NCBI GenBank assembly: GCA_025354985.1
Contig: JANXLU010000056.1
Span: 1-63,185, forward strand
Source of the DNA: Chloroflexota bacterium
GTDB lineage: Bacteria; Chloroflexota; Anaerolineae; J036; Brachytrichaceae
Direction: 5' to 3'
DNA: 63,185 bases
Positions 1,245 through 15,635 of this stretch are shown in pieces. The position numbers were made by a program, and so were the translations under genes. How positions within the stretch are numbered: the stretch's first letter is position 1; each line of letters opens with the position of its first letter. The notes under the pieces were generated by a model, which saw only the letters and a list, made by a program, of their open reading frames with translations, made no database searches and was not told the origin of the DNA.

Positions 1245-4200
1245 TTAATCCGCAAGCACCGCTGGCAGAAAGATGCGTACGGGGGCGAGCTCGGCGCCAG
1301 TGGGCGTGGTAAGCATGACATCACCCAGCAGCACCCCGGGCGCTCCGGAGACCAGCGCCTTGACGCGGACGCGCGCGATCACGCCGGTGCCCGAAGCCCC
1401 TGCGCCGGCACGACCCAAGGTATACCCAAATATGCCGGCGCTGCCCGCAGATACCGAGCCATGTGTGATGAAGGTGCGACCCGATCCCGCCAACAGCGGA
1501 CCCACGGCAATGTCACTCACCTCCATTCGCGCCGGGTCGACGTGAACAGCGATATCGAACGCGCCCAAATTACTTACGCTGTCTAGCAGGACGTCCACCG
1601 TGAATATTTCCCCGGCCTGCACACTCGTCGGCTGTGCGATCACCGCGCCTGGCCGGGTCGCCAAAGTAACGGCTGCGCGCGCGAACGGTCGGTTGCAATC
1701 GCTGTTCAAATGCTGCGCCACCAGACCGATGTCCAGCACGTCCACCCGCCCATTGGCATTCAAATCCAGTCGTGGCTCAAACAACGCCTCACCGGTCGCA
1801 GTGTCCCAGCGAAAAGCGATGTATTGCAGGTCGTTCACGCGGATGCGCCCATCCGGCAAGCCGTCTAGGCCGCCGGTAAAGTCGCCCCGGCAACCGGGAA
1901 CTGGTGTGCCGGTGGGCGTGGGCGTGGCCGTCGGAGTCCGTGTTGGGTGCGGCGTGGGTGTGGCTGTGGGCGTGTTGGTCGGGCCGGTCGTGGCGGTGGG
2001 TGTTGGCGAGGGCGAAGGAACTGCGGTCGGGGCAATCGCGCCCACCACCACCAGCGAGTGGACAAATGAGTAATTGCCCGCGCCGTCGAATCCATCCACC
2101 TGCACCTCGCGGGTGATCGACCCGCCGCTTATCAGCGGCCAGGTCGCGGCTACAAGAGCCGTGGATGGCGCTGCCACCGTAATCCGCTCCGAATCCACAA
2201 TCACGCCATCTCCGTCTGCGTCAAAGCCAAAGCGCAGCAACGCCACACCTGATGGATCATTCGCCACCACCGAGGCTACGAACGGAGCATTAAGTAACGC
2301 GGTACCTGGCGAGATTGGCTGGTAGAAGCTGAGATTTGGGCCGCTGACATCGGGCAGTTGCCCGCCATTGGCGTCCATAAACGTGCGGATGCCGGGCTCG
2401 TGCGCGGCGATGCTATTTGCGCCGGGCGCGCCGTTGGCGGTTTGCATCCAGCTGTTGCCCATGCTCAACGCGCTGTCCTGAAAGCCCAACTGCAGCACGT
2501 CCCATTCGTTCATATCGGCCCGGTCATCAGAATAGCTGTTCACGGTGCTGGTGAGCACCGTCTGATATCGATAGCTCATCAGGCTCACGTGATCATGATC
2601 ATCACCGGCCACGGGCGGGGTCTGACAGGCGCTGGCATCCGCGCCAAATGTGCCGCAATGGATGAGCCCGAGCGTGTGCCCGAGCTCGTGCGCCAGTGTG
2701 CGCCATTGCATCGCCGGGCTTTGTTCCATCTTCGGTCCCCAGTCTCCGATGGTTACCTGGGCTTCGTTGCCGGGGCGGGTGACAGGCAGTGAGAAGTCCT
2801 CCTCACTCAGCCCGCTGGACGTGGAGAAAAGTAGCATCAGGCTGCCGGCCGCGGGCAGCGTGGAATAGGGCAGGTAGCTTGCGGTAACGGAGATGTCAAT
2901 CGTGGTGGGTGGCGCACGATCCACCTGAATCCTACGCACCTGGCCAATACCGGCTCCGGAAAAGATTTTCGCCACGGCGATTCCGGGGTTGTCCTCCGTG
3001 TCATCGCACGTGTTTTGCTCGAGCAGCACCTGGGAGAGGTGCGCATTGGTTTGCGTGGTTATCTGCGCGGCTGTCGCGCAATACACGCTGGAGTGCTGCC
3101 CGAAATACACATATCGGAAGGCCAACTCACGTGCGAATTTCTCGCTGTTTTGACCGAGATACAGGCGCTTGATTTCGTCCACACTGCGGGTGGTTGGGCC
3201 ACCCACGTGATATGGATCGGCAAAGGACTCATAGGTGAAATTGATATTTTGCAGGGCATCCCGAACTTCATTACCACCGGCGAGATTCGATGGGTGACCC
3301 ATGTTGTAGGAGTACGAATACACCGCACGGGTGGTCAGTGAATCGGTGATCGTGCCAAAGTTTGGCAGCACCGCGGGCTCTGGGTCTACATCCGGACCGG
3401 CGTCCATGTGCACGACGATTCCTGCAGGGATGACTGCCGGCGGCGCGCCGTCACTGCGGTAGCCATGGGTATCGGTGAGTGGCGGCGCGGCGGCGAACAT
3501 CCAGGCCAGTCGCTGCAACGCCACGGCACGCGGCTTCACACTCATCGTGATAGGCGCACCGTCACCGGCTGCGCGGTCGGCGGACCAGTCCACCTGCACA
3601 AACAGATCGCGTTTATCCGGACGAGCGCCCATCGAGAACAGATCGAGATCGGGGTTGCCATCGCCATCCATGTCGACGCCCCCGCCCGCCGTTTCCCAAT
3701 GATCAGGGAGACCGTCCTCATCCGAGTCGATATGCGAGGCCATGATGACCTTGTCACCGTCGGTGGTGGTCACTGCGAAAGCAATGCGATGGTCACCACG
3801 CCGTTGCGTGCGTACAGCGCCGCTTGAAAGATCTGTTGCCGCGGCAGCCAGCGGCGCGTTGGCGTCGATTCCCAAAATCACATTTCCGACGGTACCGTCG
3901 ATGCGGTCACCGATCTGAACTACCTTTAGCGGAAGGTGCGGCACCAGTGTTCGGGTAATCTGGCCAAAGGCCGAGAGCACATCGAAACGCATGGTCCAAA
4001 GTCCGGGCTGATCCGTGAACAGCAGCGGTGCATTGGTCACCGGGTTTTCGCGGCTCGCGGCGTTGGGTGTGCCGTAGAACGAGACGACGTAAGAATCCCC
4101 ACCGCCGAACGGAGTGTGCAGGATGCCCACGCGCTGATCGAGCGCGATTGACTTGAAGCATAGTGCCTTGCCATTGTTGTCAAAGCCCAGTTCGGCTTCG

Positions 4201-5231
4201 GCGCACTTGGCGCCGTCCCATTGCGTGCCGAGGAGCTTCTGCGTGCCGGAAACATCGGCGGCGGCTTCCGGGAGATATACATCCAGTTCAGTGCCGCCGG
4301 GCGTGGTGCCGCTTACGATGTAAAGGGCGCCGACGGCATCGCGGCTAATGGCCGGTTTCAGCCCAAGTGCGATGTTGGTGGCGTCGGTGGCTGCAAGCTC
4401 CCTGGCACCGGTGGGAGCGTAGCGCATCATCTTGAAGGATTGTTCGGTATCTTGGACGCGGACAATGGTGGTTGCGTCATCGGCGATGCGCGGATACATT
4501 GGTCCATTGATAAACGGGCCGGCCAACGCACCGGGCGCCGCGATGTCGTTGTCAGATCGGCCGATGAAGGCGAAGGGTTGCTGATATCCCATCGCAACCT
4601 GGCTAAACATCACGACGCCATCCTTGTTGATGGTGGGGCCGGGGCCGGCAAGGTCGATATTGCGGGTCAACGTAAAGAACGTGTTGGCTCGGGCTCTGCT
4701 GATGAATTCGCCTTCATGACCGGGCCGGGTATCCCACAGGCGCACGCTGCTGCCCAGCATTGGCACGGTGGCATTGGATTCGAAGATCGGGGTGTAGCCG
4801 ACGTTGAGCGGAGGTTGGTCGATAAAGGCCGGGGAGGGCTGCGGAGCCACAAATACAGTGGTCAGGCCGCCTACGATGTTTGTCCGCGCGACGAGTTGCT
4901 CTTTGTCGTTCAGGTCGATGGTCGGGCCGTAGGTGGTGTCTGCGTTTGGAGCGCTGGTGAAACTAACGCGGCGTGGGGTGACGCCGGCAGCAGCGTAAGC
5001 GATGAACTGTCCATTCGCGTCCCTTGCGACGAAAGCCACGCTGCCGTTCTCGTTAAGGGCCACGCTTGGGGAGATGATGGTGGAGATGATCAGTCCGCTG
5101 ATTACGTCCGCTTTCTTGGCGATTAGCGTGTATTCATACATCGGATTTGGCCCGCCAACTGTCGTGCTCGCGGCGTGGGCCGCAACCGCCGTGAAAAGCA
5201 AAAGGGCCAGGGGGAGCAGTTTTTTCAACAT
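1245..5231 (-). CDS. Secreted metzincin-like metalloprotease with dockerin and cohesin domains
   Basis: A 1,328-residue exported protein. Residues 1-21 form a signal peptide ending AAHAAS. A beta-propeller-like region follows, then a calcium-binding Asp-rich loop (DSDEDGLPDHW and DMDGDGNPDLD). The metalloprotease core has HELGHTLGLIH at about 848-858 and a later SLMSY Met-turn (Met near 885), the zinc signature of metzincins. A Thr/Pro linker (about 1060-1112) leads to a type I dockerin-like pair of calcium loops (about 1115-1180, DGRIRVNDL and DLNANGRVDVLD) and then a cohesin-like domain to the end, closing in IFLPAVLAD. It starts 16 nt after the stop of the giant adhesin gene, so the two form an operon. 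Substrate unknown; could be a surface-processing protease. Family calls rest on motifs only. Confidence 0.8.
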   Translation of the reverse strand: MLKKLLPLALLLFTAVAAHAASTTVGGPNPMYEYTLIAKKADVISGLIISTIISPSVALNENGSVAFVARDANGQFIAYAAAGVTPRRVSFTSAPNADTTYGPTIDLNDKEQLVARTNIVGGLTTVFVAPQPSPAFIDQPPLNVGYTPIFESNATVPMLGSSVRLWDTRPGHEGEFISRARANTFFTLTRNIDLAGPGPTINKDGVVMFSQVAMGYQQPFAFIGRSDNDIAAPGALAGPFINGPMYPRIADDATTIVRVQDTEQSFKMMRYAPTGARELAATDATNIALGLKPAISRDAVGALYIVSGTTPGGTELDVYLPEAAADVSGTQKLLGTQWDGAKCAEAELGFDNNGKALCFKSIALDQRVGILHTPFGGGDSYVVSFYGTPNAASRENPVTNAPLLFTDQPGLWTMRFDVLSAFGQITRTLVPHLPLKVVQIGDRIDGTVGNVILGIDANAPLAAAATDLSSGAVRTQRRGDHRIAFAVTTTDGDKVIMASHIDSDEDGLPDHWETAGGGVDMDGDGNPDLDLFSMGARPDKRDLFVQVDWSADRAAGDGAPITMSVKPRAVALQRLAWMFAAAPPLTDTHGYRSDGAPPAVIPAGIVVHMDAGPDVDPEPAVLPNFGTITDSLTTRAVYSYSYNMGHPSNLAGGNEVRDALQNINFTYESFADPYHVGGPTTRSVDEIKRLYLGQNSEKFARELAFRYVYFGQHSSVYCATAAQITTQTNAHLSQVLLEQNTCDDTEDNPGIAVAKIFSGAGIGQVRRIQVDRAPPTTIDISVTASYLPYSTLPAAGSLMLLFSTSSGLSEEDFSLPVTRPGNEAQVTIGDWGPKMEQSPAMQWRTLAHELGHTLGLIHCGTFGADASACQTPPVAGDDHDHVSLMSYRYQTVLTSTVNSYSDDRADMNEWDVLQLGFQDSALSMGNSWMQTANGAPGANSIAAHEPGIRTFMDANGGQLPDVSGPNLSFYQPISPGTALLNAPFVASVVANDPSGVALLRFGFDADGDGVIVDSERITVAAPSTALVAATWPLISGGSITREVQVDGFDGAGNYSFVHSLVVVGAIAPTAVPSPSPTPTATTGPTNTPTATPTPHPTRTPTATPTPTGTPVPGCRGDFTGGLDGLPDGRIRVNDLQYIAFRWDTATGEALFEPRLDLNANGRVDVLDIGLVAQHLNSDCNRPFARAAVTLATRPGAVIAQPTSVQAGEIFTVDVLLDSVSNLGAFDIAVHVDPARMEVSDIAVGPLLAGSGRTFITHGSVSAGSAGIFGYTLGRAGAGASGTGVIARVRVKALVSGAPGVLLGDVMLTTPTGAELAPVRIFLPAVLAD

Positions 5232-5247
5232 GGTTGGGGAAATGCGC

Positions 5248-8200
5248 TCATACCGCCGCCCTCACCTGGGCTGCGTCTTGCAGGATTAGTGGGAGCAACA
5301 CCCGGTGTTGGGCTGCCGCGGGGGTGGCGGTTGCTGTGGGTGTTGGCGTGCGCGTGGCCGTGGCTGTTGGTGTCGGGGTCGGTGTGGCGGTCGGCGTGTC
5401 CGCGGGCAACAGGGTAAAGACTTGCCCGTCGGTAGATGCGGGCGTGATCGCCAAACCACGCGTAGACCCGAGCAGGATTTCGCTCAGCGACAAACCGCTG
5501 ACGCCGTTCCCCACCGGCAGGATGCTCAGCCGCGCCAGCACGCCCAAGACTTGCGGCCCGGGGCCCGGGCCATAGGTGGCCGCGGCGAAGCGGATCGAGG
5601 TCGCGCCGATGTCGGCGGCAATCGGCTGCACGGTGCGCCCGCTGCTGCCTATAAACCCGCCATCGCTCACCCGGGTCACCGAGACCACCGCCGGGTTAAA
5701 GCTGAGCTTGAACTCGGCCGCGCCCAGATCCCACACATCCGATATCAGAATATCCACAGTGATCGGCACGCCCTTGGTGATGACTTCCGACCCCGGCGAC
5801 ACGTGCAGATTGGCGTGGGTGGGATCGGGGATAAAGCGCACCACATTGACGTTGGCCGATGAGGTGGCGGTGGTACTGACCGTGCCGCTGTATGCGGTCC
5901 ATACCGAGGTATCCAGCACGCTGTTCTCCAACACCTGCGACCAGGTCTGGGTCATCCGGTCGCCTGGCGCCAGCGTGACCGGGTTGAAATAGAGCAGGTC
6001 GCCATTCACAGTGGTCGTCAGCGATTGTTCGGTGAGTGTCAGCTCGCCGGTGTTTTGGGCGGCATAGCAATAGGTGACTTCGGTGCCCGGGGGCACGGTG
6101 ATATTTGTATTCGTGCCGCAGAAGGGCAGCGTGTTTACGGTCTCGCGCACGCTCACGGCAACTGGCAGCACCACGCCGGGTTCGCACCCGCCAACAACCG
6201 GGTTGCCAAACCTGAAGCGATCCAGGAACACGCCGCTGTCGTAGCTGTCGATGTTTGCCGGGTGCAGCGGGTCGCCCACGTCGGTAATGGTCAGGCTAAA
6301 TACGCTGGTCGCGCCCGGGGTGACGGGCACCTGCGCGCGCAGCCGCGGCGTGGCGCCATCATAGGTGCTGCCCGCCGCATTGGCCGCATTTGCGGCAAAG
6401 ACCGTGTTGATCGAGATGCGGTTGCCAAGGGCATCGCGGGCAAACGGCACCCCGTCCAGATACATGTCGAAAGAATCGTTAAACGCCGAACCCCTAAATT
6501 CCGGAAACTCTTCGCTAAAGAATTTGAAATCCACACTCATGCAGGTGGCATTGGCGGGCACGTGCAGCGTGAGGCTCGCCGCGCCATGCAGCCCGAGGCC
6601 GAACGAGTCGGGCGCGTTGTTTGGCTGATCGGCAAGAATCATGTTGCCGGTGCCAAGATAGGCGTAGCTACCGCCCTCTATCGGGAACTGCTGAATGATC
6701 GTTGTGCCCACACCCACCTTTAGCGCGGCATCCAGCGGTGTCGGGCCGTCACCCTCAATCGTGCCCGAGAGCAGCCACGCCGGCGCAATGCCCATCGCCG
6801 TGGCGAAGTCCGCGGCGGACGGCGCGCGCGCGGCGAAGTTGTAGTTCAGCCCGGGACCGCTTGCACCCAACACGATGCCGTTGATCACGTTGTTTGCGCC
6901 CACCGTTCCCACGGTCACGCCGCCAACGGTGCCAACGTTGACCGCACCGCTGATAAAACCAAAGGGCGGGGTCTCCTGCACCATATAGGCACCCGGAGGA
7001 ACGTCAAAGCTATACGCGCCATCGAGCCCGGTCTGCGTGGTCAGGTTGACCGGGTTATTCTGATTGTCGCGGCCATGCAGCGCCATCGCAACCGGATACA
7101 GCCCGGGCTCGGATGTGCCGGTGATATCGCGGGTGTTGTTTAGATTGGCATCCCAGTAGACAAAGCCCGTGACCCCGCTGTTGCGCTCACCAAAGTTGTA
7201 GTTTTTCCCATCGGCAACCGTGTTCAAGGTGATACCGATGATGTTGTTGTCATTCTGCACCGCCACGCCGTTTGGTGCGCCGTCGACCGTTCCCGCGGTT
7301 ACCTTGCCATTGGCGTAGGCCGGTTGGGTCTCGTGGATGGCGTATACACCCAAATCCAGCCCTGTGAACGCATAGGCGCCAGTGGCCGCGGTGAGGGTGA
7401 TTTGCAGCACCGGTTGCGCGCCCACCAGCGTTACGCCAGATAGCGTCATCGTCACTCCGCCGATTCCCTGCTCATTTTGTTCGGGGCTGCCGTTGTTGTT
7501 GGCATCCACATATACGCGGCCGGATAGCGTGCTGGCGGGCAGCTCGCCAAAGTTGTAGTCCGTGCCAAACAACTGCGCCCCGATCTGGATGCCGCTGATG
7601 CACGCGCCCAACGGGTCAGCCGCGCCCCCGAGATTGCTGCCCACGCTGGCCTTGCCACTAGCAAAGCCTGGCGGGTCGGCTTGCTTGCACACAATATAGG
7701 TGCCCGGCGGGAGCTCGGCGAATTGATACGCGCCACCGTAACCAGTTTGCGTCGTGCTAAACACCGCGTTTGTCGTGCTGCGCAGCAGCATGGTCACGCT
7801 GACGATCCCACCCTCGGCGCGCCCGGGTGGGAACAGATAGGGCTCGAACACGCCGTTGTTGTTGTAGTCGGCATACACCGTGCCGATGATGCCAGCGCGG
7901 CGCTCGGCGAAGTTGTAGTTGTATAGCGCGCTACCCCATCCCAATTGGATTTGGCCGATGCGGTCATTGGTCACATTGCCGTTGGTGCAACCCGTACAGT
8001 CAATCCAATCGGTGAAGCCAGCCGGCTGTTGCTCGGTTAGGGTATACACACCGGCGCGCAGCCCGCCAAAGTGATAGCCCGGTATGCTGTTGCTCTGTGT
8101 ATACAGGACGTGCGCGCCCAGATCGTTTACACCTTCAAGCGTGACCGTGGCCGGGATGCCAAAATCCAAACCGTTGGTTGGTGGCTCGAAGGTGCCATTG

Positions 8201-11200
8201 CTGTTTGCGTCAAAGAACGCCAGCCCGTCTATTGAGGCCGGGGCCAGCTCGCCAAACCAGTAGTTCGCGCCGATCAGGTTTGGCGTATAGACAATGCCCG
8301 AGATCACATCGATACCTGAGCTGACTGCCAGCGTGCCGGTCACTCCGCCAAGGGTGCCCGCGGTAAACGCGCCTTCGAAGAAGCCACTGGGCTGCGGCTC
8401 GCGAATCTGATAGCTACCCGTCAGCAGCCCGGCGAAAGCGAATTCGCCGAACTCATTGGTGGTGACACTCTGTGACAGCACGCCCCCGCTGGCCAGCGTG
8501 CCGGTGAGGTCCACTTCGGTCGCATAGATGCCATTCTCGCCAGGGGTGAAAAGCCCGTCCAAGTTGGCATCGGCAAACACGCGCCCGGTGAGCACCGGGC
8601 CGGTTAGGAATTGGCAACCCTGCACCTGATCGCCAAATTGAACCGGGATGCTGACAATGCTGCGCGTGCTCATGACCGTGCCATTGCCCGATGGCCCGCC
8701 GCATACAGTTGCCGTTCGGTCGCTGTAGCCCAGCGGCACGGAGAGCAGTGTAATTGTGTATGCGCCTGGCGACAGTTTGCCAAATACATAGCTGCCAAGG
8801 GCGTCGGTTACAGTAGTGCTCAGCACCGCGCCCGAGGCGCCGCTGAGTGCCAGCGGGAGCCCGGACATGCTCGCCACGCCCAGACCGGAATCGAGGAACG
8901 GCCGGTAGAAAACCGCGCCCGCTATCGAGGCCGAGATTACTTCGGCAAAGTTGTAACCGGTGCCAAACGCGCTGCCACCGGGGGTGATCGCCAGCCCACC
9001 AAATACACCGGGCGTGACCACGCTCCCGCCCGTGCCGCTGCCCAACTGCTCCCCTTCGTACGTGTATCCCGGCGGGTTGCCAAGCAGCGTGATCGTATAG
9101 GTGCCCGGGCGCAGCGCCGCGAACTGATAGCGATAATTGGTTGTGACCGTCTGGGTGACCAGATGCGCCAAATCATCGATACCTGTGAGTCGGATTTGTG
9201 CGCTGGTGTTCGTGCCACCTTCGCCAAGGTCCAGCGCGCCGTTGCCATTGCGATCCGTAAAGATCACGCCTTCGATTACGTTCTTGAGTTCGCCAAACAA
9301 ATAGCCGGTGATGGTGTGCCCGGGGGTGAACACGATGCGGTCGATGATGTCGTTCGTGGTGGTCAGCCCACCGCCGGTGCCGATAGTGTCTTTGCCATCA
9401 CCATAGCCGGCCGGCTGGGTCTCGATCAGCGTATAAGTGCCGGTTACCAGGCTGCCGAAGAAGAAATAGCCGCGGTCACACTCGGTTTGCGGTGGCGTGG
9501 GCACTGGCGGGGTATAGCTGCTGGTCTGACGGTCCACCGTATGGTTGTAGATATCTATGCCTGTTAGCCGCAGGCTCACATTGCCGATGCCATTTTCAGG
9601 CACGCTGCATTGGCTTATGACCACGCGCTCAAACAGACCGTTGTCATTGTCATCCTGATAGGTGTAGCCGGTGAGCGATGGATCCTCGCCAAACACCGCA
9701 CCGCTGACCAGCCCCGGTGAGAGCACGATACCGCGCACGATGTTTGTACCGGTGACCGCCATCGGGGCATTGATGCGCCCGACCAGACCATCGACATCGG
9801 TCTCACGCTGCACTTCGGTGATCGTGTACGTGCCAGGACGCAGCAGATCAAACTCGAAACGACCATTGGAATTTGTCGCGCCGGTGATCCATACCGTATC
9901 GCTCAAGTCATCTATCCCGCTGATGATGATGGTGACCGGGCCATTGCGCAGCGCGGCCAGGCTGGTGTCCACATAGACCGGGGTCTCGATACCGCCGGGC
10001 TCCCAGACGAGGTCGTTGGGCCGTGGGTCGCACAGGAAATCATGCGGCCCGCGCGGGTCGCAGCCCGTCCACAGAAAGCGGCCATCCTTGTGAATGTCGT
10101 AATACACGTAACCGCCCAGGATGCCCTGAGGCAGCTCGGTAAAGTCATAGTTCTCGCCGAAAGCGCTGCCCGCGGCGTTGTAGCTGACTGTGATCACATC
10201 CGTGCCAATCGGCCCGGCGACGCCGCCGAGCGTTCCTGGAACATCCGGGCCATCGACGCTGAGTAACGGCTGGCTGGCCTCGATGATCTGATAGGTTCCG
10301 GTGATTAATGCGCCAAAGGAATAAAAGCCGTTGATATCGGTGGCCGCAGTTTTGATCACGTTGCCGCCGAGATACGTGGTTCCCGACAGGATCATATCCA
10401 CGCGGTATTGTGCGACGTGTTGCCCGGTTGGCGCGCCACCCGAATAGCTGACGATATAAACATGGCCGCTGAGCCCGACCTTGCGCTCGCCAAAGGCATA
10501 CGTTGCCGCGTTTTGGCCGGGAGCAAGCGTGATGCCGGTGAATGCGTCAGCATCGGGGGGCGTGCTGCAGAGCAAATTACCCGGTTGCAGACAATCGATG
10601 CCATCGCTATACCCGGTTGGCTGGGTTTCGATCAGACCGTATGTTCCCGGGCGCAGACCGCCAAACCGCGCCACGCCGCTGATATCGGTAAAAAGTGTTG
10701 CGCTGACCGCGTGACCCAGGTCATCCGTGCCGCTGATCAGCATACTTGCGCCCGGGATGGCACTGTCAACGCCGTCATACGCGCCGTTATTGTTGGCGTC
10801 AAAATACACTTGGGCCAGCACGCTGGCCGGGGGAAGCTCGCCAAAGTTGTATTCCACGCCGAATTCGCCGGCGTTGTAGCTCACGTCGAAATAGTCCGCG
10901 CCCGCCGTCCCGCGCACGGTGCCGGAGATCGTGCCCACGGTTTCCAGGCCATCGAGATAGGCGATGGGCTGATATTCACTGATGCGATACGTGCCCGTCA
11001 GCAGGTTGCCAAAGCTGTAGTAACCCAGGTCGCTGGTGCTTACAAACACATCGACCAATGCGCCATTAAACTGCGTGCCGGTGAGTTCAATCACCGCGTA
11101 GATTATGCCGGCCTCCCCGCCCTCGCGCGCGCCATTGTTGTTCAGGTCCCGGTATACATAGCCGCTGAGCCCGGTGCGCCGCTCGCCAAACGAATAGCCT

Positions 11201-14200
11201 GTGGCGGTACTGCCCGGGGTGATCGTTATAAAGCGGATGCTGTCGATGCCATCCGGGACGCCGGTGGTGATGCCGCCGATGTTTCCGGCGGTGTCTTTGC
11301 CATCGGTGTAGCCCTCGGGCTGCAGCTCGGTGAGCGTGTAGATCCCCGGGCGCAGGTTGCCAAATGCGCCCGGCCCGATCGTGGTGAGCGTGAGCTGCAC
11401 GCTGGACGAGAGGTCGTCCGTGCCGGACAGGATCATCGTGGCCGCGACATAGGGCTCGCAGCTTGAGGCGCAATCCAGCGTGCCGTTGTTGTTCAGGTCA
11501 TAGAAGGCGTAGGTTTGCAGCGCGGCGGGCGGCAGCTCGGCAAAGCGCAGCCCATTGATCGTCTGCCCTGCGGGCACGGTGAGCGACAGCAGGTCATTAG
11601 CCAGCACGGAGCCGCCGATGCCAGCGAAGTCCGCGCCATCGAGATATCCCGCAGGCTGGGTCTCGCTGAGCACGTAGCTGCCTGCGGGAACGCCCGAGAA
11701 ATAAAATATGCCAAGGCCATCGCTAAGGGTGGTGGCGGTAAAGGGGTTGCCCGCGGTGCCGCTGAGCGTAAGCCGCACATTGACCAAACCGTAGTCGGCG
11801 GCGGCGTTAATAATGCCGTTGTTGTCGATATCTTGGAAGACGTTTCCTGCGATCTGCGGGCGCTCGGCGAACAGGTAGTTTTGCCCGGAGGTGTTGAGGT
11901 TGCCGGGCCCGACCAGGATGAAGCTGATGCTGTCGTTGGTGCTGGTGATCCCGCCGAAGGACCCCGCGGTCACGATGCCATTAAGGAAGCCGGCCGGCTG
12001 CTGTTCGGTAAGCGTGTAGCTGCCTGCGCGCAAGCCGCCAAAGGCGAACGTGCCATTGGCGATCGAGCGCGTGCTGCTTAGCACGGGAGCGCCGTTGTCA
12101 TCCACGCCTCTAAGCGTGACCGTGACCCCTGCTATGCCGGGCGCGGAACAGCACTGCAGGTTGCCGACCACATCCACCAGCACGTAACCGGAAAGAGACC
12201 ATGGCGCGAGCAACGCAAAGTTGTAGCCGCTAACGAGCGTGCCGGCTGTATACGTCAGCGAGACTTCGGTGCGGCTGACCACGCTTCCCCCGCCAGTGCC
12301 TATGACGGCAGTGCCTGCGAGCAGCCCGGGGCCGGGGACTAGCGACAGCCGGTAATTGCCTGCGGCCACGCCGCTGAAGGAATAGTCACCGGCTGCGTTG
12401 GTCGTGCGCGTGTAATAGTTGCTGACGCTGGTGCCAGAGAGCACAACAACGAGATTGGGCAGACCCACATCGCAGTACCCAAAGCAGCTGATCACTCCGT
12501 TGTTATCGTAATCCCGGAAAACATTGCCGGAGAGACCATCGTGCCGCTCCGCAAAAAGGTAAGGCGCGTAGTTTTGTGCAAAGGGCAGCGTGATGCTGAG
12601 GATTTGATCGGGATCGACGGGCACGCCCGTGGAGTAGTAACCGCCGGTGTTGTAGTTGTAAATCTGCGGCGCAGCGTCCGGGCCATCGGTGTAGCTCAGC
12701 GGCTGGGTCTCGACCAGTGCATACGTGCCCGGGCGCAGATTGCCAAAGTTAAAGCCGGGTTGGACTGGTGTGTAGCACTGGTTGCTGCTGGCGTAGGAGC
12801 ATAGAAAGGCCAGGCTGGTGGTGACAATGTTGACCGTGTGGCCCAGATCATCGGTTCCGGTCAGGGTGACCGTGGTGCTAAGCGTGGTCTCACCGCTGTT
12901 TAGCGCGCCATCGGGCGCGCTGTCATAGAACACATAGCCCTGAATCGAGGACGGCGTATATTCGTTAAAGTTGTAGCCATCGCCGCGACCTTGATCCGGG
13001 AACACGATGCCACTGATGACATTCGTGCCGCTGATTCCGCCCAGCGTGCCCACCATCGTGGGTGTGAATGAGTCGAGATACCCGAGCGGCTGTTGCTCGA
13101 CGAGGCTGTAGGTGCCCGACAGCACATTCTCAAAGAAGTAGTAGCCGTTTGTGCGGCTGAGCGCGGTGCGCGAAACCGGCGCGCCGGCGGTGGTGGCGCC
13201 CGTGAGGATGATGGTGGTATTCGGGACCGCGGCCGTAGCGTTATCGCGATACACCACCCCGGAAAGCCCGATCAGGCGCTCGCCGAAATAGAACGGGCTG
13301 GCCGTGCCGCCCGAGGTCACAGTTATATTGGTAAACGCGTTGATGCCGCTGACCGCCCCGGCGACAAAGGTAGACGCTGTTCCATCGGAATAGCTGATTG
13401 GCTGGGTTTCGGTGATCGCATACAGTCCCGGGCGCAAACCGATGGCGTTGTAGTTGCCATTGACGTCGCTGGTGCTGGTGATTAGCGCGGTGGGCCCCAG
13501 GTCCGTGACGCCCGTGATGGTAATGATCACGCCAGGGATGCCGGGTTCATTAATGTCTTGCCCGTCACCATTGACATCATTGAAGACCACGCCGTAAATG
13601 GCGCCGTTGTGATATTCGGCGAAGTTATAGTTTCGGCCGAGCTGACCGGCCGCGTACGTGACCGAAGAAATATAGACGCCGGACGAAACGCCGGTGGTGA
13701 CGCCATTGAGCGTGCCCACCTGTACCGCGCTGTCGAGAAAGCTCAAATTTACCGGCATGCTGCGGCTGAGATGATAGGTGCCGGTAATGGTGTTGGAGAA
13801 GTTGTAAAACGCTGTGCCGTTTAACAGCGTTGTGCGGGTAACCGGGTTGCCCAGGTAATCTTGTCCCAGTAAGCTGACCTGGGGGAATGGTGCGTAATAT
13901 GTGCCAGTGGGATAGTCGAACGCCGGGTCCAGCACGCCGTTGTTGTTCAGGTCTTCATAGATATAACCGCTGATCCCGGGCTGCGATTGCGCCAGCTGGC
14001 CGAGGTAGCCGGTGCCACCCGAGGTGAGGGTGATGTTCGTAACCACACCGATGCCGGGAATGCCATTGGTGCCAAGCGAACTTGGTCCCAGGATAAACCC
14101 GGGCGCAGGCGAGACCGTGGCCGTGTAGCTGCCCGGACGAACCGGGTAAAACGTGAACTGACCATAGAACGTGGACAGCGTGGTGGTGAGCACTGGTGCA

Positions 14201-15447
14201 CCGAGGTCATCGACGCCGGCGAGCGTGACCGTTATGTTCTGCAGGTTGGCGTCCCACGCTCCCTCATATAGACCGGTGCCATTGCGATCTTCATACACCT
14301 GGCCAAAGGACTGACCGGGCTGCACTGCGGCGAAGTTGTAGTTAAAGCCCAACGTCGGCGTGCTGACCACGGTGATGTTCTTGATGACGTTTGTAAGCAC
14401 GGCCGTCCCGCCCAGCGAGCCGATCTGCATGCGACCATCGAGATATTGACCACTGGCGAACGGGGTGAGCCGGGTAAGCGTATAACTGCCCGGGCTGCTG
14501 AGCGCAAAGGAATAGAAGCCGGAGTAGTTGGTGGTTGTGCTCCGCGAAATGACAGCGCCCAGCGCGTCCACGCCGGTGAGTTGGATTTGAAAGGCCGGGC
14601 TTCCGATTCCATATTCGCTGGATGGCTGGAACTGGCCGTCGGCATTGCCATCCTGAAATACATTGCCTTGCAGACCAGGGAGCCCTGCGAGGAAGTCATA
14701 ATTATTGAGCGAGGTGCCAAAACTGAGCGAGATGCCACGCGTGCTCGTGACTCCGGATTGCGCCGGGCTGCCGTACGGGGACAGGCTGTGCGTCCAATAG
14801 ATATTCGGCAGCGCCGGCACGGTGATTGTGAACTGGCCGGCGCGGACCGGGGCGAACGAGTAGCTGCCATCCGAGGCGGTGGTCGTGGTGATCACCGGGT
14901 GCGCGCCATTGTCATCCGTGCCGCTTAGGGTGAGTACCGCGCCGGCGACCGGCTGATCGGGAGGGCCGAAGCCATAGGAATTTCCGCCATCTGCATCGAT
15001 ATAGGCGCGTCCGGCGATCGCAGCCTGCAGGTGCTGCGCGAAGTTGTAATCGGTGCCGTTGGCCGAACCATCGATGGTTATCCCCCGGATAACGTAGGCG
15101 CCGACGGCCGTGCCTGCGAGCGAACCCGCGCTAGCAGGGCCACTGACAAAATTGGCCGGCTGTGACGCAGTCAGAGTGTAGCTGCCCGGAGGGACAAGGG
15201 TAAAGTTATACGGGCCGGTCTGGTTGCTGAGAACGGCCTGATACACCGCGCCAAGGCTGGTGCTCCCGCTCAACGTGATGACATAAGGGAAGTACACGCC
15301 AAATTCCGTCGTGCTGGAATACACGCCGTCATTATTCAGGTCGACATACATGATTCCAGAGACGGTAATGTTGGCCTCGGTGGACGCCTGGGCAATACCC
15401 GCGCCAACGGCGCTGGCGAATAGCAACGCCAGCAGGATAGTTTTCAT
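5248..15447 (-). CDS. Giant secreted adhesin-like protein with 24 SdrD/Cna-B-type repeats
   Basis: About 3,399 residues from the ATG at 15447, chosen because it begins a classical signal peptide (MKTILLALLFASAVGAGIAQAS); an in-frame start 61 codons upstream would bury it. I count 24 repeats of roughly 110-120 residues, each starting like LSGYVYRDLNNNG (calcium-loop type DxNxxG), followed by a LSGTDDLG-like strand and a GSYTLTETQPxGYxDG-like strand: SdrD B/Cna-B fold. After the repeats come a choice-of-anchor L-like domain (FFSEEFPEF, FNDSFDMYLDG), a DUF11-like strand-rich domain, a cohesin-like domain, a Thr/Pro tract and the terminal motif VLLPLIL. Likely a surface stalk or adhesin; calcium stiffening is inferred from SdrD. 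The downstream protease shares the cohesin ending. No membrane anchor or LPxTG seen. Confidence 0.82.
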   Translation of the reverse strand: MKTILLALLFASAVGAGIAQASTEANITVSGIMYVDLNNDGVYSSTTEFGVYFPYVITLSGSTSLGAVYQAVLSNQTGPYNFTLVPPGSYTLTASQPANFVSGPASAGSLAGTAVGAYVIRGITIDGSANGTDYNFAQHLQAAIAGRAYIDADGGNSYGFGPPDQPVAGAVLTLSGTDDNGAHPVITTTTASDGSYSFAPVRAGQFTITVPALPNIYWTHSLSPYGSPAQSGVTSTRGISLSFGTSLNNYDFLAGLPGLQGNVFQDGNADGQFQPSSEYGIGSPAFQIQLTGVDALGAVISRSTTTNYSGFYSFALSSPGSYTLTRLTPFASGQYLDGRMQIGSLGGTAVLTNVIKNITVVSTPTLGFNYNFAAVQPGQSFGQVYEDRNGTGLYEGAWDANLQNITVTLAGVDDLGAPVLTTTLSTFYGQFTFYPVRPGSYTATVSPAPGFILGPSSLGTNGIPGIGVVTNITLTSGGTGYLGQLAQSQPGISGYIYEDLNNNGVLDPAFDYPTGTYYAPFPQVSLLGQDYLGNPVTRTTLLNGTAFYNFSNTITGTYHLSRSMPVNLSFLDSAVQVGTLNGVTTGVSSGVYISSVTYAAGQLGRNYNFAEYHNGAIYGVVFNDVNGDGQDINEPGIPGVIITITGVTDLGPTALITSTSDVNGNYNAIGLRPGLYAITETQPISYSDGTASTFVAGAVSGINAFTNITVTSGGTASPFYFGERLIGLSGVVYRDNATAAVPNTTIILTGATTAGAPVSRTALSRTNGYYFFENVLSGTYSLVEQQPLGYLDSFTPTMVGTLGGISGTNVISGIVFPDQGRGDGYNFNEYTPSSIQGYVFYDSAPDGALNSGETTLSTTVTLTGTDDLGHTVNIVTTSLAFLCSYASSNQCYTPVQPGFNFGNLRPGTYALVETQPLSYTDGPDAAPQIYNYNTGGYYSTGVPVDPDQILSITLPFAQNYAPYLFAERHDGLSGNVFRDYDNNGVISCFGYCDVGLPNLVVVLSGTSVSNYYTRTTNAAGDYSFSGVAAGNYRLSLVPGPGLLAGTAVIGTGGGSVVSRTEVSLTYTAGTLVSGYNFALLAPWSLSGYVLVDVVGNLQCCSAPGIAGVTVTLRGVDDNGAPVLSSTRSIANGTFAFGGLRAGSYTLTEQQPAGFLNGIVTAGSFGGITSTNDSISFILVGPGNLNTSGQNYLFAERPQIAGNVFQDIDNNGIINAAADYGLVNVRLTLSGTAGNPFTATTLSDGLGIFYFSGVPAGSYVLSETQPAGYLDGADFAGIGGSVLANDLLSLTVPAGQTINGLRFAELPPAALQTYAFYDLNNNGTLDCASSCEPYVAATMILSGTDDLSSSVQLTLTTIGPGAFGNLRPGIYTLTELQPEGYTDGKDTAGNIGGITTGVPDGIDSIRFITITPGSTATGYSFGERRTGLSGYVYRDLNNNGAREGGEAGIIYAVIELTGTQFNGALVDVFVSTSDLGYYSFGNLLTGTYRISEYQPIAYLDGLETVGTISGTVRGTAGADYFDVSYNAGEFGVEYNFGELPPASVLAQVYFDANNNGAYDGVDSAIPGASMLISGTDDLGHAVSATLFTDISGVARFGGLRPGTYGLIETQPTGYSDGIDCLQPGNLLCSTPPDADAFTGITLAPGQNAATYAFGERKVGLSGHVYIVSYSGGAPTGQHVAQYRVDMILSGTTYLGGNVIKTAATDINGFYSFGALITGTYQIIEASQPLLSVDGPDVPGTLGGVAGPIGTDVITVSYNAAGSAFGENYDFTELPQGILGGYVYYDIHKDGRFLWTGCDPRGPHDFLCDPRPNDLVWEPGGIETPVYVDTSLAALRNGPVTIIISGIDDLSDTVWITGATNSNGRFEFDLLRPGTYTITEVQRETDVDGLVGRINAPMAVTGTNIVRGIVLSPGLVSGAVFGEDPSLTGYTYQDDNDNGLFERVVISQCSVPENGIGNVSLRLTGIDIYNHTVDRQTSSYTPPVPTPPQTECDRGYFFFGSLVTGTYTLIETQPAGYGDGKDTIGTGGGLTTTNDIIDRIVFTPGHTITGYLFGELKNVIEGVIFTDRNGNGALDLGEGGTNTSAQIRLTGIDDLAHLVTQTVTTNYRYQFAALRPGTYTITLLGNPPGYTYEGEQLGSGTGGSVVTPGVFGGLAITPGGSAFGTGYNFAEVISASIAGAVFYRPFLDSGLGVASMSGLPLALSGASGAVLSTTVTDALGSYVFGKLSPGAYTITLLSVPLGYSDRTATVCGGPSGNGTVMSTRSIVSIPVQFGDQVQGCQFLTGPVLTGRVFADANLDGLFTPGENGIYATEVDLTGTLASGGVLSQSVTTNEFGEFAFAGLLTGSYQIREPQPSGFFEGAFTAGTLGGVTGTLAVSSGIDVISGIVYTPNLIGANYWFGELAPASIDGLAFFDANSNGTFEPPTNGLDFGIPATVTLEGVNDLGAHVLYTQSNSIPGYHFGGLRAGVYTLTEQQPAGFTDWIDCTGCTNGNVTNDRIGQIQLGWGSALYNYNFAERRAGIIGTVYADYNNNGVFEPYLFPPGRAEGGIVSVTMLLRSTTNAVFSTTQTGYGGAYQFAELPPGTYIVCKQADPPGFASGKASVGSNLGGAADPLGACISGIQIGAQLFGTDYNFGELPASTLSGRVYVDANNNGSPEQNEQGIGGVTMTLSGVTLVGAQPVLQITLTAATGAYAFTGLDLGVYAIHETQPAYANGKVTAGTVDGAPNGVAVQNDNNIIGITLNTVADGKNYNFGERNSGVTGFVYWDANLNNTRDITGTSEPGLYPVAMALHGRDNQNNPVNLTTQTGLDGAYSFDVPPGAYMVQETPPFGFISGAVNVGTVGGVTVGTVGANNVINGIVLGASGPGLNYNFAARAPSAADFATAMGIAPAWLLSGTIEGDGPTPLDAALKVGVGTTIIQQFPIEGGSYAYLGTGNMILADQPNNAPDSFGLGLHGAASLTLHVPANATCMSVDFKFFSEEFPEFRGSAFNDSFDMYLDGVPFARDALGNRISINTVFAANAANAAGSTYDGATPRLRAQVPVTPGATSVFSLTITDVGDPLHPANIDSYDSGVFLDRFRFGNPVVGGCEPGVVLPVAVSVRETVNTLPFCGTNTNITVPPGTEVTYCYAAQNTGELTLTEQSLTTTVNGDLLYFNPVTLAPGDRMTQTWSQVLENSVLDTSVWTAYSGTVSTTATSSANVNVVRFIPDPTHANLHVSPGSEVITKGVPITVDILISDVWDLGAAEFKLSFNPAVVSVTRVSDGGFIGSSGRTVQPIAADIGATSIRFAAATYGPGPGPQVLGVLARLSILPVGNGVSGLSLSEILLGSTRGLAITPASTDGQVFTLLPADTPTATPTPTPTATATRTPTPTATATPAAAQHRVLLPLILQDAAQVRAAV

Positions 15448-15629: not shown

Positions 15630-15635
15630 TAGAAT
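15630..15635 (+). promoter_or_regulatory. -10 box TAGAAT, 6 nt before the aldo/keto reductase ATG
   Basis: TAGAAT matches TATAAT at 5/6 positions and ends 6 nt before the start codon at 15642, so the first transcribed base would fall at or next to the ATG. No Shine-Dalgarno sequence is present. A leaderless mRNA is the simplest reading. No good -35 is visible. Confidence 0.5.

Follow-up and report, generated by a model that had tools for sequence, protein, structure and literature searches.

A giant SdrD-type stalk paired with a dockerin- and cohesin-tailed metzincin-like protease: a candidate non-cellulosomal surface complex in a Chloroflexota bacterium

Cohesin-dockerin pairs outside cellulosomes have long been known and are seldom seen with partner, cargo and operon visible together. 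The locus described here raises the question of whether a protease that carries both modules is held at the cell surface by the giant repeat protein encoded beside it, or whether its dockerin and cohesin serve another end. The window (the whole stretch of DNA that was analysed, 63,185 nucleotides) is one entire contig (C50) of a 4.19-Mb, 98-contig genome that is 95.8% complete.

Domains of the stalk and the protease

The features on which the argument draws are the following.

5248..15447 (-), giant SdrD-type repeat stalk (adhesin-like), coding sequence of 3,399 aa counted from the signal-peptide Met of MKTILLALLFASAVGAGIAQAS
6900..15340, ends approximate (-), SdrD_B/prealbumin-like repeat array (PF17210, E 3.6e-146, 19 stretches)
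6220..6591 (-), choice-of-anchor-L domain (NF038133, 48 bits against a cut-off of 27)
5410..5826 (-), adhesin cohesin domain (AF2 model and Foldseek)
5281..5397 (-), Thr/Pro tract followed by a C-terminal LP-motif, LLPLIL (sequence; motif enrichment)
5232..5247 (-), intergenic gap of 16 nt from adhesin stop to protease start (ORF coordinates)
1245..5231 (-), metzincin-like protease with signal peptide and dockerin-cohesin tail, coding sequence of 1,328 aa
2655..2690 (-), zinc-binding motif HELGHTLGLIHC (HExGHTLGLxHC invariant across three paralogues)
2565..2585 (-), Met-turn SLMSYRY (invariant across three paralogues)
1905..2030 (-), Thr/Pro tract between catalytic part and dockerin (sequence)
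1692..1904 (-), dockerin with two EF-hand-like loops (profile match to solved dockerins; 27-sequence alignment)
1830..1883 (-), dockerin loop 1 (D1...D12) with an insertion of about 6 residues (alignment)
1731..1766 (-), dockerin loop 2, canonical, DLNANGRVDVLD (alignment)
1248..1640 (-), protease cohesin domain, ending LPAVLAD (PF00963, 29.9 bits against a cut-off of 24.1; Z 11.1)

The initial annotation described an SdrD-like protein of about 3,400 residues and a metzincin-like protease encoded 16 nt apart, and the ORF coordinates and orientation agree with this. The longest reading frame of the stalk opens at 15630, the start at 15447 being that of the signal-peptide Met. At other direct stalk-enzyme pairs the gap is 2, 13 or 23 nt or a 4-nt overlap, depending on the start codon. 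Signal-peptide-like N termini suggest that both stalk and protease are secreted.

The stalk cohesin scores 16.8 bits against Pfam PF00963, below the cut-off of 24.1, although the equivalent domain of two paralogues exceeds it. Its AF2 model (pLDDT 87.6, pTM 0.81) matches best the solved cohesin 2xdh (Foldseek E 4.5e-9, Z 17.4, rmsd 1.8 over 123 residues), and nearly all structure matches listed for it are cohesins, so that the domain as modelled has the cohesin beta-sandwich fold. The linker region of the stalk resembles DUF7507 in the paralogue on contig C90. The stalk C terminus consists of the Thr/Pro tract and LLPLILQDAAQVRAAV; no LPXTG anchor was found in the stalk over cut-off (iso_D2_wall_anc, 16.8 against 95 bits), and the LPXTG, hydrophobic segment and charged tail of MSCRAMM adhesins were not seen at this end. 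Neither the C50 nor the C90 stalk gave a Pfam match to a carbohydrate-binding module (CBM).

The catalytic part of the protease fits the metzincin pattern, with HExxHxxGxxH and a Met-turn, and proteolytic activity is predicted from it; the Reprolysin_5 model is exceeded by the paralogue on contig C62 (29.7 bits over a cut-off of 27) and stays below cut-off in the window protease. In the model of the protease tail the C-terminal domain takes the cohesin beta-sandwich fold (Foldseek E 2.1e-6, Z 11.1), and 50 of the 50 rows listed are cohesins. Both structure models were built without paralogues from the same genome. The earlier claim that both proteins carry cohesins is thus borne out, by the Pfam match for the protease and by the models for both (Z 17.4 and 11.1). 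Each cohesin was also said to lie beside a Thr/Pro tract, which needs correction: the tract follows the cohesin in the adhesin and precedes dockerin and cohesin in the protease.

The dockerin is supported from the family alignment as a type I-like domain for which calcium-dependent cohesin binding is predicted. Its own PF00404 score is sub-threshold (13.4 bits), so that of the profile searches proposed at the outset only the PF00963 search of the protease passed its cut-off. The family dockerin profile nevertheless matches solved dockerins (4wi0_B best, E 3.5e-7; also 3kcp and 2b59), all 27 dockerins of the alignment keep D1 and D12 in both loops, and a segment likely to form a helix follows each loop. 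The two calcium loops first read in the protease are therefore upheld, loop 1 with its insertion. All EF-hand ligands are present in loop 2, and D1, D5 and D12 are kept in loop 1, whose calcium binding is in doubt because of the insertion; insertions at a similar place occur in C90, C94, C62 and one protein of genome G004. Sequence and structure alike assign both cohesin regions to the cohesin fold, and EF-hand ligands are present; of the findings that would have spoken against the initial annotation, those that could be looked for were not made. The structure model of the dockerin, built from only six dockerin rows, places two helices where expected at a pLDDT below 50, which leaves room for an intramolecular or non-binding role. 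Cysteines near each end of the dockerin, common in the family, might act as a clasp. In many other Anaerolineae dockerins the two halves match strongly, as in dual-mode dockerins; the window dockerin is less symmetric (5 of 17 positions).

Recurrence of the stalk-enzyme pair

The same arrangement is found at three more loci of this genome, of which C90 and C62 pair a stalk with a member of the same protease family and C94 encodes a 5,254-aa stalk, a 461-aa two-cohesin protein and an LCAT-like hydrolase. A fifth locus, in another genus (genome G005), combines a stalk with a Vps10/BNR propeller and LCAT-like hydrolase. The genes for stalk and dockerin-tailed enzyme are directly adjacent at four of the five loci, the C94 enzyme gene following that of the two-cohesin protein. 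All five stalks share the order choice-of-anchor-L, linker, cohesin, Thr/Pro tract and LP-motif; each has one cohesin and no dockerin, and among the cassette proteins of the family only the 461-aa C94 protein has two cohesins. The enzyme varies and its tail is constant: a Thr/Pro tract and a dockerin, then a cohesin (in the four tails readable in frame), the linker from dockerin to cohesin being short and variable wherever the tail is readable throughout. Stalk tails of the other four loci, choice-of-anchor-L included, are 46-71% identical to that of the window and the enzyme tails 21-51%. The C90 and C62 proteases are not fresh duplicates, being 46-55% identical to that of the window. This recurrence at five loci in two genera, together with the structures, rules out chance domain matches.

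A dockerin-cohesin tail of this kind occurs in 4 of 28 family genomes (this one, G000, with G001, G004 and G005), and the full-length stalk tail was found among 396 class genomes only in G000, in four copies, and in G005; a scan of genome contigs returned four loci, all in the host's family. A search for the same metzincin in the 396 class genomes, a weak negative with two candidates scored per genome, returned only C90 and C50 of this genome at E 1e-20. The neighbouring aldo/keto reductase, used as a synteny marker, had no close counterpart among the eight relatives of the family that were searched. Of 59 dockerin candidates in this genome, the first survey scored 18. The dockerins found in the genome with an E-value of 1e-6 or lower belong to metzincin or LCAT-like tails or to contig-end fragments overlapping one such tail, and no glycoside hydrolase was seen among the strong dockerin proteins found in it.

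The C62 protease runs off its contig end, with an apparent continuation in C82 where the cohesin lies in another frame. The start of C62 (L015, C62:1-227) and the end of C58 (L018) share 227 bp at 99.6%, C58 ending in a near-identical dockerin stretch, and each overlaps the end of C82 (L051) by 67 bp inside the dockerin; this may reflect an assembly fork, a duplication or a broken copy. By eye, a further gene of C58 (L018 5033-6133(-)) was recognised as encoding a tyrosine recombinase similar to integron integrases. Contig C26 of the genome (L017, 2557-13455(+)) carries a separate giant repeat protein of 3,633 aa, cut off by the contig end, whose first quarter has a weak dockerin match of 15 bits.

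Proposed docking on the stalk and its alternatives

At a probability of roughly 60%, the preferred reading is that the cassette encodes a non-cellulosomal, largely proteolytic cohesin-dockerin surface complex in which the giant SdrD stalk acts as a scaffoldin with one site. The stalk would be secreted and retained at the surface, perhaps through its C-terminal Thr/Pro tract and LP-motif, with the SdrD array projecting outward. The co-expressed protease would also be secreted, and its calcium-dependent dockerin would dock on a cohesin, most likely that of the adhesin, holding the enzyme at the cell surface. The C-terminal cohesin of the protease would then offer a second socket, into which one more dockerin enzyme may be drawn, be it another protease or the C94 LCAT-like hydrolase; at that locus the protein with two cohesins could serve as a small scaffoldin. 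From domain identities, operon pairing and recurrence, each read from sequence or models, we infer secretion, anchoring, binding, partner choice, chaining and substrate. The proposal that the protease docks on the adhesin, already made in the initial annotation, has gained in plausibility from four loci here, one in another genus and dockerin-protease and cohesin clusters in other Anaerolineae, the binding itself being a prediction.

A dockerin next to a cohesin in one chain could pair internally, which counts against docking on the stalk. In such a tail the dockerin would clasp its own cohesin as a rigid spacer or anchor, and stalk and protease would be co-expressed and unlinked. The two modules are indeed adjacent in one chain in every readable tail, and cohesin-dockerin-cohesin tails are common in the class. 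However, proteins with only a dockerin or only a cohesin also occur, in shared gene clusters, and self-pairing leaves unexplained the cohesin without a dockerin of its own on every stalk. Docking on the stalk is favoured over self-pairing because every stalk keeps such a cohesin and because related operons put cohesins and dockerins on separate proteins; self-pairing is accordingly considered unlikely, if the strongest of the alternatives.

Slightly less probable again is a stalk-independent association of the enzymes, head to tail with the dockerin of one in the cohesin of the next, or as closed dimers, giving soluble or matrix-bound oligomers. Both modules are present in each readable enzyme tail, and an adaptor-like cohesin-dockerin-cohesin protein of 431 aa is encoded in the same genus, but chaining of this kind does not account for a conserved cohesin on five of five stalks beside enzymes. 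Proteases are commonly encoded near their surface substrates, and the pairing might on that ground mean only that the protease matures or sheds the stalk, the cohesins and dockerins being inherited decoration. This is very improbable, since the calcium ligands of the dockerin are retained and the partner at C94 and in G005 is a different hydrolase and not this protease.

The cohesins themselves were also sorted, with profiles of first and second cohesins built from cohesin-dockerin-cohesin tails outside this family as a held-out test. Five of five stalk cohesins were assigned to the first type and eight of eight enzyme-tail cohesins to the second, with small margins for the stalks (about 3-12 bits), whose cohesins lie near one clade. 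In the cohesin tree the first and second labels cluster against shuffles, yet the two types are not clades, and the phylogeny was rejected as proof of the types; the five stalk cohesins and the two of the C94 scaffold fall in one clade (97/93). The argument from domain fusion, by which the enzyme tail and the stalk cohesin would go together, is thus only suggestive, because of the small margins, the related members and a tree that does not separate the types.

Known systems and the wider class

With the cellulosome (Clostridium thermocellum, Acetivibrio) the locus shares the cohesin and dockerin folds and the placing of dockerin on enzyme and cohesin on a larger protein. Unlike there, each giant SdrD stalk has one cohesin and no CBM or SLH match was seen, and the enzymes are proteases or LCAT-like hydrolases that also carry a cohesin. 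A cellulosome proper was rejected on the absence of glycoside hydrolases among strong-match dockerin proteins, the single cohesin per stalk and the lack of a CBM match in the C50 and C90 stalks. By analogy the cassette would work like a cellulosome arm, but it fails the cellulosome features tested and groups with non-cellulosomal cohesin-dockerin systems. The closest solved structure to the adhesin cohesin, 2xdh (Z 17.4), is itself a non-cellulosomal cohesin from Archaeoglobus fulgidus, outside cellulose degradation. A long surface stalk with a tightly held protease is also known from tetrabrachion and the STABLE protease of Staphylothermus marinus, which works alike; there the stalk is a coiled coil, the protease a subtilisin held by another interface, and the setting an archaeal S-layer. 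SdrD-type MSCRAMM adhesins share the B-type repeat stalk but not its end, which here runs through choice-of-anchor-L, linker, cohesin, Thr/Pro tract and LP-motif.

One paper cites archaeal non-cellulosomal cohesin-dockerin binding as verified and adds that large scaffoldins are reportedly lacking in archaea that have these domains (PMC9012536), whereas the cassette repeated here combines a giant repeat stalk with a co-operonic protease. Adaptor proteins with both modules are known from cellulosomes, an example being a protein that joins an S8-peptidase-like domain to a Coh1-Doc1 unit (PMC11557425). As summarised in a review, dDoc_0689 of C. thermocellum is a cellulosomal S8 protease with a double dockerin, proposed to be anchored at the cell surface via a cohesin (PMC12484212); it resembles the present protease in this proposed anchoring and differs in being a subtilisin and not a metzincin, part of a cellulosome, with two dockerins in place of dockerin and cohesin and no described pairing with a stalk gene. 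Non-cellulosomal cohesins and dockerins, scaffoldins with both modules and dockerin-bearing S8 or cysteine peptidases are thus already known (PMC9012536, PMC11557425, PMC12484212). The novelty lies in the cassette, which pairs a giant one-cohesin SdrD stalk with a dockerin-cohesin enzyme, mostly a metzincin. Literature searches on cohesin-dockerin proteases of Chloroflexi/Chloroflexota and on a C-terminal sorting motif brought up no relevant paper in the collection searched, which does not prove that none exists. With partner and cargo side by side in a repeated cassette, specificity becomes directly testable over four natural pairs in one genome. The cassette also offers candidate new binding pairs for protein engineering, and it suggests that an abundant and mostly uncultured phylum has its own proteolytic counterpart of the cellulosome.

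In the class Anaerolineae 87 of 346 genomes have dockerins of this type, and cohesin-dockerin-cohesin tails are common there on S8 protease, VWA, CARDB/PKD and other proteins. In genome G111 the gene for a C25 (gingipain-family) protease with a C-terminal dockerin precedes three cohesin genes, whose products end in LP-motifs (L129 5914-12493(-)), by its gene content an independent protease-scaffold cluster; C1- and C39-like dockerin proteins of the same genome follow a cohesin gene. A further C1 protease in the class also adjoins a cohesin gene. The peptidases among other dockerin proteins sampled from G111, G171 and G084, not at random, are S8 (twice), C25, C1 and M28, with CHAP and M23 also present and the remainder glycosidase-, lyase- or phosphatase-like or without assignment. 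Proteases thus appear as a prominent, though not the sole, dockerin cargo.

The LP-motif (hydrophobic-P-hydrophobic-hydrophobic near the C-terminal end, as in YLPLVxx) is present in 28 of 45 cohesin or dockerin proteins against 7 of 372 other ORFs at the same loci, a background that includes non-genes, and at the C terminus of none of five dockerin-only proteins outside the family. In the window it lies at 5281-5298 (stalk) and 1248-1268 (protease), and it is found at further C termini in L013, L015, L016, L044 and L112-L129; it is possibly a Chloroflexota surface-sorting signal. Cohesin proteins often end in this motif or in a hydrophobic segment, an ending that none of the five tested dockerin-only proteins has; anchored cohesin proteins that recruit dockerin enzymes would be expected to give this pattern. 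A tentative generalisation, held at somewhat less than even odds, is that Anaerolineae possess a family of cohesin-dockerin surface complexes with proteases as a main cargo, in which cohesin proteins anchored by LP-motif or membrane segment would recruit dockerin-tailed proteases (metzincin, C25, C1, S8, M28 and others) and other hydrolases, the giant SdrD stalks being the scaffoldins of a Thermoflexales-related lineage.

Genome G001, of the same genus as the host, encodes the 431-aa protein mentioned above, a secreted, adaptor-scaffoldin-like cohesin-dockerin-cohesin protein (L045 11453-12745(-)), which adjoins an 840-aa RCC1-propeller protein with the same module order, and a 402-aa cohesin protein lies nearby.
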